Source of the DNA: Gilvimarinus gilvus
GTDB taxonomy: Bacteria; Pseudomonadota; Gammaproteobacteria; Pseudomonadales; Cellvibrionaceae
Reading direction: 5' to 3'
Length of the DNA stretch: 35,515 nucleotides
Assembly: GCF_030518155.1 (NCBI RefSeq)
Contig: NZ_JAULRU010000257.1
Coordinates: 1-35,515, forward strand
In this document: positions 1 to 4,323 of the stretch, piece by piece
How the letters are laid out: every line of letters starts with the position of its first letter
How positions within the stretch are numbered: the first letter of the stretch is position 1
Position numbers and translations under genes: made by a program
The notes under the pieces: generated by a model
Seen by the model: the letters and a program-made list of their open reading frames with translations, nothing else
Databases searched by the model: none
What the model was told of the DNA's origin: nothing

Positions 1-85
1 GGTCGCATTAACTGCTTGCATGAGGAAAATGATGACAATATTAAACGCCATGATCCGTGACGGAAAAGAATGGCAGCAAGCTTAA
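1..85 (+). CDS. IS110/IS1111-family transposase, C-terminal end (partial, runs off the left edge)
   Basis: An open frame entering from the left edge (codons from base 2) reads VALTACMRKMMTILNAMIRD and seven more residues before a TAA at 83-85. This matches the usual C-terminus of IS110/IS1111 transposases (pattern VAL-x-A-CMRK-xx-TILNAM-x-RDG), the Transposase_20 region of a DEDD-type recombinase. Only about 27 residues are in the window. The following 20-25 bases (about 86-108, containing TTTGTCAAAAGAATACGTTGG-like sequence) resemble the subterminal inverted repeat of IS1111-type elements. A plausible half attC site then begins, so the element probably targeted an attC. The family call rests on a short but characteristic motif. 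Confidence 0.72.
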   Translation, partial: VALTACMRKMMTILNAMIRDGKEWQQA

Positions 86-104
86 TTTGTCAAAAGAATA
101 CGTT

Positions 105-142
105 GGTTCAGGCTTGATTTTTACCACAGTCGCTTGTTATAT
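105..142 (-). other. Half of an integron attC site (R'' side), interrupted by the IS1111-type element
   Basis: Directly after the stop of the zinc-ribbon cassette gene, the minus strand reads GGCATATAACAAGCGACTG. ATATAAC (142-136) occupies the inverse-core position and is followed by the AAGCG typical of attC left arms. No matching right arm or GTTRRRY core is seen before the IS110-like sequence at the window edge. I infer that the second half lies beyond the insertion element. The inner boundary is approximate. Confidence 0.5.
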
Positions 143-146
143 GCCA

Positions 147-434
147 CTATTCGACCACCTCCAATGGAGATATTACTGCGTACACCACATCGAAAATAAA
201 CCACGCAATACCGACTATGATAATACCCGCCACACCGAACGTATTAAGAGACAATATAGCGGCGAAAAAGAATACAACGAATCCCAGTGTGAAAACCACT
301 GTACCGAAAATCCAATGTGCCCTTACTCTTGCCCCACATGATCCACATTTAGCACCGCGGATTGCTATTGGCGCAATAAGCCCGAATAGACTGACACTGT
401 GTTGGGCACACTTCGGGCACTTTCGTTTACGCAT
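147..434 (-). CDS. Small zinc-ribbon membrane protein (integron cassette gene)
   Basis: A 95-residue protein. The N-terminal third carries two CxxC pairs (CPKC near residue 6 and CGSC near residue 30), the pattern of a short zinc ribbon. Two hydrophobic segments follow (roughly residues 43-63 and 66-88), so it is probably an inner-membrane protein with a cytoplasmic zinc-binding head. The ATG at 434 has a good ribosome-binding site (GAGGGG) and starts 17 bases after the GTTATAT core of the upstream attC, exactly where a cassette gene should begin. The gene fills its cassette and ends next to another attC-like core. A protein of the same architecture, but little obvious identity, is encoded at 34474-34803. 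Function unknown. Confidence 0.75.
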   Translation of the reverse strand: MRKRKCPKCAQHSVSLFGLIAPIAIRGAKCGSCGARVRAHWIFGTVVFTLGFVVFFFAAILSLNTFGVAGIIIVGIAWFIFDVVYAVISPLEVVE

Positions 435-445
435 GTCGCCCCCTC

Positions 446-530
446 ATATAACGCCAACATTTGCAGATTTTTGGTTGTTGCTGTCTTTCAAGCAACAGCC
501 AAAAATTCCGGCAAGATGGCTTTGTTATGT
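446..530 (-). repeat. attC recombination site
   Basis: On the minus strand the site starts with the inverse core ACATAAC (530-524) and ends with GTTATAT (452-446). Between them are GCCATCTTGC and GCAAATGTTGGC, which pair imperfectly, and an inner hairpin with GGCTGTTGCT against AGCAACAACC. Size (85 nt), complementary cores and position between two short minus-strand genes all fit a chromosomal-integron attC read on the minus strand. Confidence 0.75.
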
Positions 531-539
531 TTTTATTTG

Positions 540-881
540 CTAAATTCTTAATAGTTGGATATAACACCTGCCTTGCGAATCCACATCGCTTTCATCTACC
601 CAAACTCTTATTGGCTTATTAGCCATATATGCAGCCAGAGCTATTGAATAGCCTTTACTATAGTCAGTGGATCTCTTAAATCTTAAAAGTATTTTTCCAG
701 AATCTAAAGTACACCCGCCAAGCTGGGACAAGTTTAAGGTTATAAAGTCTTCATATGGTTGATTCTCGGAGGAAAATCCAATCGCCTCGATACTTGCTGA
801 AGCGCTGGTTAATGCCATTGTTTTATTAGTGGCAAACGTAGAAACAGTAAAAATTAGGATTATCATTATTAAATTTTTCAA
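540..881 (-). CDS. Small exported protein of unknown function (integron cassette gene)
   Basis: A 113-residue protein with an N-terminal signal peptide (hydrophobic residues 3-18, probable cleavage near ALTSASA at 23-29). The mature part is about 90 residues with two cysteines (near 57 and 105) that could form a disulfide. Its sequence (SxGYSIALAAYMANKPIRVWV, then a CYIQ end) resembles small periplasmic hypothetical proteins common in marine gammaproteobacteria, for which I know no function. The start is TTG at 881, with GGAG eight bases upstream; an internal ATG at 866 would cut the signal peptide short. The gene is followed by an attC (446-530). It is preceded by the group II intron, which separates it from its own upstream core site. 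Confidence 0.7.
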   Translation of the reverse strand: MKNLIMIILIFTVSTFATNKTMALTSASASIEAIGFSSENQPYEDFITLNLSQLGGCTLDSGKILLRFKRSTDYSKGYSIALAAYMANKPIRVWVDESDVDSQGRCYIQLLRI

Positions 882-920
882 TTTTACACTCCATTACTTA
901 AAAATAGGACTTAAAAACAG

Positions 921-2893
921 TCGTGGTAGAACGCCCCATTACTGAGACGCCCCCACACAGATCCGGACGTGCGGAATTACCGCATCCGGCTCCTCATTAA
1001 TATCATTGCCCGCGTAAATCACAAGCTCTCTCATCATACCAATCCACAATGACGCGCGGCTTGCGCACTCGCATTGACTGGAAACCAAAGTGGTTAAGCA
1101 TACTTTTCATTCCATTCCATGTGAAGCTCTTCCTCTGACTACGCCTGTTGAGCCATTTGTAAAGACTCTCAAGTATATAGTCAAAGACCCTACCCACACT
1201 GCGACTGTTACCACTGAGTGCAAAGTAGTTTCGAAAGCCCTGCACCTTTCTATTTAGCTGAGGAATCAACTGGCATAGCCGCTTATGGCGGTGCTCTTTG
1301 ATCCAACCATAGAAAGTACGCAGTGCCGCCCTGTGTTTCTTAGGGCTGGTTTCTCGCCGCACCCTCGCCTCGCCTTTATAGTCAATCTCCCAGAATAGTC
1401 TAAATCCCAAGAAATCAAAGTGCATGGCCTGATTCGGCTTGAAACGACTGAAGCGCTTTAGCGATGTTTTATCCCGCGCCACCTCTAAACTGAATTTATT
1501 CAGTCTGGAAGGTAGCTCTTGGTAAAACATTTCGGCTTCATCTTTATACTGAAAAGCGACCACAAAGTCATCGGCATACCGTATCAGCATGGCGTGTCCT
1601 TGCAGTCGTGGCTTGATAACCTTCTCAAACCAGAGATCAAGTGCGTAGTGCAAATAGATATTTGCCAAAACAGGACTGATCACACCGCCTTGCGGCGTTC
1701 CCGCGCTCGGCTTCTGCTTTCGGCCTGTCGGCTCCACAACACGTGCTTTTAACCACTGGTTGATTAAGCTCAGCAACGCATGATCTTCGATTTTAAGCGC
1801 AAGCATTTTCAGCAGCCAATCATGATCCATGTTGTCAAAGAAGCCTTTAATATCAGCCTCTACAATATAGCCATAACTGCCGTACTGTAAGTTCATCTGT
1901 AAACTATGAACCGCCTGGTGAGCACTTTTCTTAGCGCGATAGCCGTAGCTACACGTTAAGAATTCCGGCTCCCAGATACTCTGCACTAAATCAGATACAC
2001 TTTGCTGAACGATTTTATCGGTTAACGTTGGCAACCCTAAAGGGCGCTGCTTTCCGTTTGCTTTGGGAATATACACACGCTTCACATCACTGACCCGATA
2101 GCGTTTAGCTTCGAGAGCACCCGCGAGCGAATGAATATTCTCGACCAGCCTCGCTTCATAGTCTGGCGCTGTTACGCCATCTATGCCTGCCGCTGAAGAT
2201 TTATTGAGATTAAGCCACCCATTAAACAGTGATTTCGCAGTCAATTGTCCATAGAGATTTTGAAAGCGATGTTTCGGGTGTGTTTGTGCTTTAAATGCTA
2301 TGGCGTTTAATTCGGTTGTCATAGTAATTCCAGCCCTACTTTGTCCGGACTATGTATCTGTTAAACGCCGCGATATTAATGTCAGCCCCTTTGCCGTGTA
2401 AGTGGCTTTCCCACTCTCAGACTACTATGAGCTGATCCGACTTCCAGAGCGTCTTCGGTTGCCTCGCCTTTTACTTAGCTGCCCTACCCACTCCATTGGG
2501 AACGACTCTGGATCTCACAAGTTCCTGCCGAAACTCTTTATACATGCCACGGTTTGATAACTCCGCTAGGTCTTTACAATCTCGCCTGAAAAAAAAATAA
2601 TGATTGCTCAGCATGGACTTCGATGGCGTTACAAACCTCGTCACCTAGGATTCGCTACTTTCGGAGCGATACCAACACTTCAGGGCCACGGCAGCCCCTA
2701 TGGCCTATATAATTCTCTGTCTACGCTTCACGCTGGTTGTTTCTGCTGTTTGTGGGAGGGTCGCCCCTCGCACCGGAAAGTGTATGCGATCCACAGCTTC
2801 CGCGCAGCGCGCAAGACTCGATACCGGTGAGCGGCTAACTCTTGCCCGACAGGGACTTTCACCCTGCAAGTTTCGACAAGCTTCTTGTCGCAC
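921..2893 (-). mobile_element. Group II intron (complete, ~1.97 kb) inserted in an attC core
   Basis: The 5' end at 2893 reads GTGCGACAAGAAGCTTGTCG, the standard GUGYG start, followed by a domain I-like segment with GGGTGAAAGTCCC. About 570 nt of structured leader precede the maturase gene. After the gene, a domain V hairpin (about 964-1000; GAGCCGGATGCGGTAATTCC then GCACGTCCGGATC) and a domain VI end in CTACCACGAC at 921. The candidate branch-point A lies eight bases from the 3' end. The upstream exon ends ...GGGCGTTA and the downstream exon begins TGTTTTTAAG; joined, they give a GTTATGT core. The intron and its gene point the same way as the cassettes. Boundaries come from motif reading, not structure prediction. 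Confidence 0.88.
1003..2322 (-). CDS. ltrA: Group II intron reverse transcriptase/maturase
   Basis: This 439-residue intron-encoded protein helps splicing and copies the intron into DNA at a new site. RT fingers and palm run from about residue 45 to 310: GIDGV (46-50), RPLGLPTLTDK (93-103), the first catalytic aspartate in EADIKGFFD (D157), GTPQGGVISPVLANI (208-222) and the RYADD box (248-252, catalytic D251/D252). The GIIM maturase (X) domain covers about 330-410 (FYGWIKEHR ... LNRRSQRKSF). No C-terminal HNH endonuclease is present, so insertion probably uses single-stranded or replicating target DNA. It is full length with all catalytic residues, so the element may still be active. The ATG at 2322 has GGA upstream. 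Confidence 0.93.
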   Translation of the reverse strand: MTTELNAIAFKAQTHPKHRFQNLYGQLTAKSLFNGWLNLNKSSAAGIDGVTAPDYEARLVENIHSLAGALEAKRYRVSDVKRVYIPKANGKQRPLGLPTLTDKIVQQSVSDLVQSIWEPEFLTCSYGYRAKKSAHQAVHSLQMNLQYGSYGYIVEADIKGFFDNMDHDWLLKMLALKIEDHALLSLINQWLKARVVEPTGRKQKPSAGTPQGGVISPVLANIYLHYALDLWFEKVIKPRLQGHAMLIRYADDFVVAFQYKDEAEMFYQELPSRLNKFSLEVARDKTSLKRFSRFKPNQAMHFDFLGFRLFWEIDYKGEARVRRETSPKKHRAALRTFYGWIKEHRHKRLCQLIPQLNRKVQGFRNYFALSGNSRSVGRVFDYILESLYKWLNRRSQRKSFTWNGMKSMLNHFGFQSMRVRKPRVIVDWYDERACDLRGQ

Positions 2894-2959
2894 TAACGCC
2901 CAAATTTGCGGGCGACTGAAGCGAAGCGTAAGGCGCTCCGCAAGATTTGTTTGTTAGGC
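2894..2959 (-). repeat. attC recombination site, split by the group II intron
   Basis: Minus strand: inverse core GCCTAAC (2959-2953), then CAAATCTTGCG, a loop with GCTTCGCTTC, then CGCAAATTTG and GGGCGTTA up to 2894. The two arms pair except for one extra G in the first arm, the extrahelical base typical of attC left arms, which fixes the site's orientation on the minus strand. The GTT core is cut after GTTA by the group II intron. The remaining core bases (TGT) are at 920-918. Confidence 0.85.
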
Positions 2960-2966
2960 TTAACGA

Positions 2967-3419
2967 CTAAACCCCTACTGGATACCTGCTTGCAATGGCA
3001 ATACGGTTCCAACTATTCATTAGAACTCCAGCCCACTGGACTGACGAAATCTGAACATCTGTTAATTCCGAACTGGCCACTTTATAAACGTCATCAGATA
3101 TCTGGCCATCCGAAATATTTGTAATAGCCTCTATTAAAGTTAATGCTGCTCGCTCAGTTTCTGTAAAATATTGTGTCTCTTTCCACAATGAAAGAACAGC
3201 TAGTCGATCAAGGCTTTCCTCGGATTTTACTGCGTCACTCGAATGCATTTTCATGCAGAAAGCACAACCGTTTATTTGTGATACCCTCAGTTTAAGTAGA
3301 TGGCAAAACCCCTCAGTGAAGCCCGCGCCCTCAAGGTCTGCAGAAACCAATTGATCTAGCTCTACTACTTTTTTGTACATTTCAGGCGAGGTTTTTCCGA
3401 GGTTTATCCTTTCTTTCAT
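2967..3419 (-). CDS. Carboxymuconolactone decarboxylase / AhpD-like family protein (integron cassette gene)
   Basis: A 150-residue all-helical protein of the AhpD/CMD family. The hallmark is NGCAFCMKMHSSDA near residue 55, with the CxxC pair and the downstream histidine that AhpD-type peroxidases use for thiol-disulfide chemistry. Family members are small oligomeric antioxidant or peroxidase-like enzymes; the substrate cannot be told here. I take the ATG at 3419 as start; a TTG two codons upstream is also open. The stop lies eight bases before the GCCTAAC inverse core of its attC. A GTTAGGC core lies 19 bases upstream of the ATG, so this is a complete cassette, the one nearest the integrase remnant. 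Confidence 0.85.
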   Translation of the reverse strand: MKERINLGKTSPEMYKKVVELDQLVSADLEGAGFTEGFCHLLKLRVSQINGCAFCMKMHSSDAVKSEESLDRLAVLSLWKETQYFTETERAALTLIEAITNISDGQISDDVYKVASSELTDVQISSVQWAGVLMNSWNRIAIASRYPVGV

Positions 3420-3437
3420 ACTCAAATCTCATTAATA

Positions 3438-3505
3438 GCCTAACAGTTAATTCAAAAGACTAAGTAAAATCCCTCGCGGCAATATAACACCCCGAGAAGT
3501 TAGAC
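3438..3505 (-). repeat. Putative attC or attI-like core at the head of the left array
   Basis: On the minus strand GTCTAAC (3505-3499) and GTTAGGC (3444-3438) flank 54 bases, with GTTAGGC exactly at the start of the AhpD-like cassette. The internal arms (TTCTCGGGG against CGCGAGGGA) pair poorly, so this may be a degenerate attC or the attI junction rather than a working attC. Confidence 0.45.
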
Positions 3506-4065: not shown

Positions 4066-4092
4066 ACGTCCAGCTCACTAAGGAGGTTTAAT

Positions 4093-4323
4093 ATGTCACG
4101 GAGTCCTTTTCTTGAAATGGTACGCCAAGAGATTCGCTTGCGAGGGTATAGCATGCGCACAGAGCGTACCTATCTTTACTGGATTCGTCATTTCGTCTTG
4201 TTTAACGATAAACTACACCCCGAGGCGTTAGAGAACGCAGAAATAGAAAGGTTTCAGCGCTACCTCGTGGTTAATCGCAAAGTTAGTGCTGGCACTCGTA
4301 GCCCTGTCGATAGCCTATTCTAA
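4093..4323 (+). pseudogene. intI: Truncated integron integrase (IntI N-terminal fragment)
   Basis: 76 residues. The segment FLEMVRQEIRLRGYSMRTER followed by TYLYWIRHFVLFNDKLHPE is the N-terminal core-binding (SAM-like) domain of integron tyrosine recombinases. It is a standard match up to VVNRKVSAGT (about residue 68), where intact IntI proteins continue QNQALxALxFLY. Here the sequence becomes RSPVDSLF and stops, so the catalytic domain (R-H-R-Y) and the IntI-specific patch are missing. The ribosome-binding site AAGGAGG sits at the right spacing before the ATG. Orientation is opposite to the cassettes at 1-3440, as in a normal integron. It cannot recombine sites by itself. The break at about 4300 marks the edge of the mobile region. 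Confidence 0.85.

Follow-up and report, generated by a model that had tools for sequence, protein, structure and literature searches.

A complete group II intron of 1974 nt was found inside the attC core of an integron gene cassette in Gilvimarinus gilvus (contig NZ_JAULRU010000257.1; the whole stretch of 35,515 nucleotides analyzed here is referred to as the window), and we consider it very probable that this intron is a mobile element of a non-IIC, class-E-like lineage that favors the attC sites of integron cassettes as its home. The case is made from sequence: from the anatomy of the intron, its exact site and orientation, the covariation of its EBS1 with the exon, the folded upstream exons, the repeated copies and the lineage of its reverse transcriptase (RT). 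We further lean toward the view that hairpin-guided invasion of attC has a second origin, outside IIC and directed at the other strand, in a class-E-like intron whose EBS1 fits GCGTTA and in which a hairpin would replace IBS2; being sense to the cassettes, such an intron would be a spliceable, nearly silent passenger that IntI could carry.

The intron is intact and lies on the minus strand, its 5′ end at 2893 and its 3′ end at 920, beginning with GTGCGACAAG (GTGCG...) and terminating in CTACCACGAC (Table 1). It has the parts by which a group II intron is recognized, namely a GUGYG 5′ end, domains I-VI, a bulged A, an AY 3′ end and an RT/maturase. The AGC triad of domain V is located at about 991-989, within GAGCCGG, and the bulged A of domain VI is base 927, the eighth counting from the intron 3′ end. 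The RT ORF matched TIGR04416 with 357 bits and contained RVT_1 and GIIM; these two were the only Pfam matches at E 0.001, and no endonuclease domain was found in the ORF. The AGC triad and an RT without endonuclease domain are both class E traits.

Table 1. Features of the cassette array and of the intron within it, in window coordinates and listed from the integrase remnant onward.
Feature	Position	Strand	Basis or detail
Integron integrase remnant	4093..4323	+	About 70 N-terminal residues, then a short stretch resembling the IntI C-terminus; middle missing
First core of the array, GTTAGGC	3438..3444	-	Complement of the cassette 1 R″
Cassette 1 ORF, AhpD/carboxymuconolactone-decarboxylase-like	2967..3425	-	NCBIfam/Pfam
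attC1 up to the insertion point (5′ exon)	2894..2959	-	R″ GCCTAAC at 2959-2953, then the hairpin arms, with GTTA at 2897-2894 opening R′
Complete group II intron, 1974 nt	920..2893	-	GTGCG...CTACCACGAC; Rfam domains I-IV and V-VI
Ribozyme domains I to start of IV	2551..2859	-	RF02005 (domains I-IV), 93.2 bits, E 3.7e-25 (Rfam)
EBS1 (TAACGC)	2626..2631	-	Complementary to the last six 5′ exon bases, GCGTTA; loop and exon covary among relatives
Reverse transcriptase/maturase of the intron (439 aa, with YADD motif)	1003..2322	-	Open ORF; TIGR04416, RVT_1, GIIM
Domains V and VI	920..994	-	RF00029 (Rfam), 40.7 bits, barely over the gathering score of 40; fold z -3.73
Remainder of the split attC1 core, TGT (3′ exon start)	917..919	-	GTTA+TGT = complement of ACATAAC 530-524
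Cassette 2 ORF, without NCBIfam or Pfam match	540..881	-	Position; the intron sits in the cassette 2 5′ leader
attC2	446..530	-	R″ ACATAAC 530-524, core GTTATAT 452-446
Cassette 3 ORF, without NCBIfam or Pfam match	147..434	-	Position
attC3	40..142	-	R″ ATATAAC 142-136, core GTTTAAT 46-40

The minus strand of the window carries a short array of three cassettes adjoining a remnant of an intI gene. The attC sites stand in tandem, and in all three cassettes the core at the start complements the R″ of that same cassette at 7/7 positions (GTTAGGC with GCCTAAC in cassette 1, GTTA^TGT with ACATAAC in cassette 2 and GTTATAT with ATATAAC in cassette 3, ^ marking the intron), the signature of an integron cassette array in which intI is present only as a remnant. 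The ORFs were assigned to the three cassettes by position and share the strand of the intron, and the first core of the array (3444-3438) is probably the attI junction. Over 73 residues (4084-4302) the intI remnant is 53% identical to an intact IntI, and it is oriented opposite to the cassette ORFs and the intron; a family-profile search of the window's own genome found no IntI above the family cut-off, the remnant included.

The intron splits the R′ core of attC1, which then reads GCCTAAC-AAACAAATC...GGGCGTTA^TGT, with a 5′ exon ending in GGGCGTTA and a 3′ exon beginning with TGT. Since the rebuilt core GTTATGT matches the R″ (ACATAAC) of the downstream cassette at 7/7 positions, no target base was lost or duplicated. 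An attC is nearly palindromic, so that only its asymmetry tells the two strands apart; the exon of the window runs TAACAA...GCGTTA, which is the attC top strand, with the insertion at R′, and the intron is sense to the cassettes and directed away from the intI remnant. The original prediction of a complete group II intron within an attC core, in the orientation of the cassettes and with the attC hairpin arms directly in the 5′ exon, was borne out on each of these points, the arms abutting the insertion and the junction scoring 17.6 in an arm-complementarity attC scan; the range of 921-2959 predicted for it does contain a real intron but also takes in the attC arm at 2894-2959.

We placed the RT in a maximum-likelihood tree of 56 RTs. 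The window RT fell in a group of 25 members with support of 100/100, made up of 23 members, hereafter the clade, and two Akkermansiaceae introns placed inside or beside it, and outside IIC, which formed a separate group with support of 100/98 and is represented in the tree by two solved IIC RTs and related loci, with no named IIC-attC RT among them. Forcing the window group together with IIC made the tree 44 log units worse and was rejected (p-AU 0.008), whereas forcing it together with the sole class E anchor, S.me.I4, cost 6.7 log units and was not rejected (p-AU 0.32); the groups under test were named after a first tree, which weakens both p-values. The S.me.I4 sequence, which we take to be an RT fragment on pRmeGR4b, stood beside the window group in the free tree and shares 38% identity with the window RT; S.me.I4 is also matched by the 5′ and 3′ profiles. 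Its class is the nearest named one, although the window group stands apart from it with full support. S.me.I4 has been named class E (PMC5894124, consulted in part). From these comparisons the lineage of the window intron is class-E-like, and we do not assign it to class E.

Domain V is consistent with the tree. The IIC triad is described as CGC in the available part of PMC7923331, and in three relatives of the solved IIC RTs (L144, L149 and L043) domain V reads GAACCGCC, the CGC form. L039, outermost in the IIC group, is followed by GAGCCG, an AGC-type domain V, so the AGC triad supports the tree but cannot decide alone. The view that the triad sets the window intron apart from the usual class C form is borne out by the three CGC introns, though an AGC triad by itself is compatible with kinship to IIC. 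The proposal of a separate lineage using attC hairpins is supported by the rejected union with IIC and by the attC evidence at the junctions of relatives given below.

The sequence UAACGC (2631-2626) sits in a loop of the 5′ part of the ribozyme and is the EBS1 of the window intron. An EBS1-IBS1 pairing of at least 5.5 of 6 was found in 30 of 36 introns, whereas permuted exons gave 11.6 on average and 20 at most; the 36 include L072, L074 and L087, three related introns outside the clade. The loop position was the same in 26 of the 30, while the four pairings at another loop position (L159, L127, L160 and L165) are probably due to chance. Compensatory exon/EBS1 pairs were seen in GCGTCA/TGACGC (L018), GCGTTG/CAACGC (L158), CCGTTG/CAACGG (L131), TTGTTA/TAACAA (L135) and ACCGTT/AACGGT (L052), and outside the clade in GTGCAT/ATGCAC of L072. 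The six introns short of the threshold were L190, L180, L132, L058, L073 and L082, the last of which has no exon on its contig; L190 (RT 71% identical) is inserted at GTCA, mismatched to its own EBS1. In L165 and L180 a longer, different sequence replaces the EBS1 loop, and their sites, TCTCGTTA and TATGTCTA, are unpaired at the usual place.

No IBS2 signal was found in 34 clade introns over five exon segments from -16 to -7 (z -0.4, 0.1, -0.4, -0.1 and -1.2), whereas 22 related introns gave a weak one in two of the five segments (z 2.2, 2.8, 0.8, 0.9 and 0.7). The upstream exons of the clade are unusually foldable, with a median fold z of -1.8 over 32 exons compared to -0.03 over 96 control windows (MWU p 2e-8, a value that is too small since the sequences are related and their kinship is uncorrected), and no such enrichment was found in 23 related introns (median z -0.25, control -0.26). 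The window's own 5′ exon is moderately folded, with z -1.39 as RNA and -2.50 as DNA. Exons other than GCGTTA were still strongly folded in L068 (ACTGTT, z -7.5) and in L055 and L057 (both ACGTTA, z -3.3 and -4.1). Taken over the relatives, these statistics argue for target recognition by a stem-loop replacing IBS2 together with a short IBS1, in the manner of IIC. The two Akkermansiaceae introns of the fully supported RT group, L068 and L091, are inserted after GTT, L068 behind its very stable hairpin and L091 behind an unremarkable exon (z -0.25); hairpins may have been used before attC sites were.

The relatives were drawn from the best 80 of at least 568 related loci, and the exon, scan, R″, fold and EBS1/IBS2 counts cover loci with a recognizable 5′ or 3′ end. 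Three attC criteria were applied to 37 junctions, namely the scan score, a downstream R″ complement and TAACAA upstream, with L159, L130, L052 and L082 left aside for a 5′ flank under 100 bases; the criteria are imperfect, in that R″ variants and long sites are missed. The 5′ exon ended in GTTA in 30 of the 37 relatives. A scan score of at least 17 was reached in 11 of the 40 rows, or in 10 of 38 junctions once the double entries for L165 and L167 are merged, compared to 2.8% of 1168 other GTTA sites in the locus flanks; the specificity of the scan is modest, 9.5% of ordinary GTTA sites reaching 13. The R″ test is independent of the upstream hairpin and relies on the rebuilt core complementing the next downstream R″: among 37 loci with a readable 3′ end (in 11 of which the 5′ end is missing and GTTA was assumed) an exact complement lay within 1.8 kb downstream in 16, whereas exchanging cores between loci by permutation gave 4.7 on average and 11 at most; an exact complement with attC-like arms lay there in 14, with 2.9 on average and 8 at most under permutation. 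TAACAA, the start of many attC sites, was present 45-150 bases upstream of 15/37 junctions, compared to 5.4% of 1169 other sites. At least one criterion applied to 23 of the 37 junctions and at least two to 13, while 14 showed none, so attC is favored and yet is not the sole target; the expectation that other copies would also sit in attC cores holds for the 23 and not for the 14.

An IntI family match was obtained in 20/20 chosen intron genomes, 18 of them over the cut-off (the choice left out the intron carriers G088, G297-G299, G301, G303, G304, G698 and G771), and within the order of the window 122 of 286 genomes have an IntI over the cut-off. Eight copies, two fragments included, were placed within 50 kb of an intI gene, and every one is directed away from it, as cassettes are; they come from five genomes (G209, G294, G422, G616 and G624), one set of matches comprising those at E ≤ 1e-90. 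In the 5000 best-scoring plasmid records and in 70 phage records, the best place for the intron had less than 60% identity in every record.

Copies within single genomes bear on the mobility of the intron. Genome G616 holds three copies, one of them partial, at different sites, each with TAACAA upstream and with differing flanks; their aligned intron sequences are 99.9% identical, and similarity stops at the intron 3′ edge in the two full copies and 6-12 nt before the 5′ edge. Since near-identical copies have unrelated flanks, the intron itself has moved recently in this genome. L189 and L017 belong to one genome and are 99.1% identical; L017 occupies an attC, whereas L189 shows none of the attC criteria and is apparently an ectopic copy. 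The window's own genome contains the one full copy and a 3′ fragment of 328 bases with 93% DNA identity (L004, G000:C332:77299-77626, with one TAA in its RT remnant), for whose 3′ flank no R″ match was found within 1.8 kb downstream. The copies L215 and L216 of G942, both at AGTTA, are 98.6% identical, some 260 bases of shared 5′ flank included, and may represent a duplication or a repeated target.

These data were weighed against three other explanations. That the intron is an ordinary IIC-attC intron whose strand or core had been misread is highly improbable. The attC target, the lack of an endonuclease domain and the short IBS1 with an upstream hairpin do agree with what is reported for IIC-attC introns in the available part of PMC7923331, but the rejected union of the RT with IIC, the AGC in domain V where L144, L149 and L043 have the CGC form, a top-strand exon GCGTTA with TAACAA upstream instead of bottom-strand TTGT/T, and an intron sense to the cassettes and directed away from the intI remnant all speak against it; by tree (with IIC represented by two solved RTs and related loci), domain V and strand we reject an IIC-attC identity of the window intron. 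It is quite unlikely, too, that a conventional homing intron is at hand, with a 6-nt EBS1 that happens to fit GCGTTA as a common conserved exon and a hairpin of no relevance. EBS1 accounts well for the exon, and some insertions are at GTTA or GTCA without attC features (L189 and L190). The homing explanation has more difficulty with folded upstream exons that are enriched in the clade and not in the 23 related introns, with an IBS2 signal that is missing from the clade though weakly present in the related introns, and with L068, L055 and L057, which keep folded upstream exons at other target sequences.

An insertion elsewhere must also be considered, the intron having come to the window locus with cassette 2, moved by integrase, so that no insertion took place at this locus; we regard this as unlikely. 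IntI cuts at G^TT, which would let the intron and cassette 2 excise as one circle, and the IntI match in every intron genome searched is in keeping with such carriage. Carriage, however, would only push the insertion back to a previous attC: the split core fits the R″ of its own cassette all the same, and in G616 the flanks of near-identical introns are unrelated on both sides, so there the intron itself moved.

We return to an intron that itself invades attC, and read the data as a non-IIC lineage that came independently to target the top strand of attC by means of a hairpin plus IBS1. Under this reading the intron RNA would recognize attC at its 3′ end on that strand, through pairing of EBS1 (UAACGC) with the R′ box GCGTTA, while the hairpin just upstream would substitute for the IBS2 exon pairing and would be needed for insertion. 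Reverse splicing would take place directly after GTTA, three bases past the IntI crossover and with no target base lost or duplicated, presumably into single-stranded attC, and priming may occur at the replication fork. Lying sense in the leader of the next cassette, the intron could splice out of cassette transcripts. Because the insertion point is three bases from the IntI crossover, the intron and cassette 2 could excise together, the intron being carried along with its cassette.

The closest known counterparts are the IIC-attC introns of the S.ma.I2 type, which share with the window intron an RT lacking the endonuclease domain, insertion in cassette attC sites and an upstream stem-loop with a short IBS1 (PMC7923331, here and below as far as available). 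They differ in having IIC RNA and RT, the CGC triad and insertion at the bottom-strand R″ (TTGT/T), opposite to the cassettes, in contrast to the non-IIC RT, AGC triad and sense insertion at the top-strand R′ (GCGTTA/) seen here; the original prediction had given the inverse core and the opposite polarity for them, in agreement with that paper (PMC7923331). The window intron is not the first non-IIC intron in cassette arrays, since H.ha.F1, H.ha.F2 and UHB.I2 have already been reported (PMC7923331). H.ha.F1 and H.ha.F2 are truncated class E (IIB) introns in a CALIN of Halorhodospira halochloris, class E by the tree of that paper (PMC7923331). They resemble the window intron in being non-IIC, in lying in cassettes with an attC-like structure upstream and in being stated to lie on the leading strand, as the cassettes' top strand does, but are 5′-truncated with broken RTs, and no EBS1 or target rule is derived for them in the part of the paper available; the comparison made here is of published descriptions (PMC7923331). 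UHB.I2 (IIB1/CL1) is likewise non-IIC, oriented as the cassettes and located right after an attC, but has a CL1 RT, unusual ends (UUGCG..GU) and poorly conserved exons and is a single case (PMC7923331). An intron of S. algae KC-Na-R1 also has the orientation of the cassettes and is discussed among class C-attC introns in the accessible part of PMC9229058. A further intron in that orientation is cited in PMC7923331 and is called IIC.

Judged by titles and abstracts, PMC7923331 was the sole paper found on non-IIC introns in integrons, and no prior report was found of an intact member, a top-strand GCGTTA rule, EBS1 covariation or a lineage-wide link to hairpins; nor did the literature covered, in the parts available, yield a statement that intact class E introns use hairpins or attC sites. 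According to a 2015 review, every lineage except class C homes to a defined site (PMC4424553, consulted in part). If the proposal is true, stem-loop and short IBS1 are combined by a second lineage, which uses the opposite strand of attC in an orientation compatible with splicing; this would amount to convergent evolution of target choice, and such introns would offer a direct test of single-strand recognition of attC without integrase. A sense intron can in principle splice from cassette transcripts, whereas an antisense IIC-attC intron cannot; an intron in a cassette would then not need to silence the array.

A hairpin directly before GTTA (CCGC..GCGG) occurs in many of the exons from Alteromonadales loci; it looks like part of attC itself, and we dropped it as a separate targeting signal. 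Additionally, five Alteromonadales loci (L127, L159, L165, L158 and L160) have ttctacag[c/t]ctCGTTA upstream or AGG[C/T]TGTAG downstream, which are inverted repeats of each other and may belong to a cassette, or to some other element, that recurs at the target.
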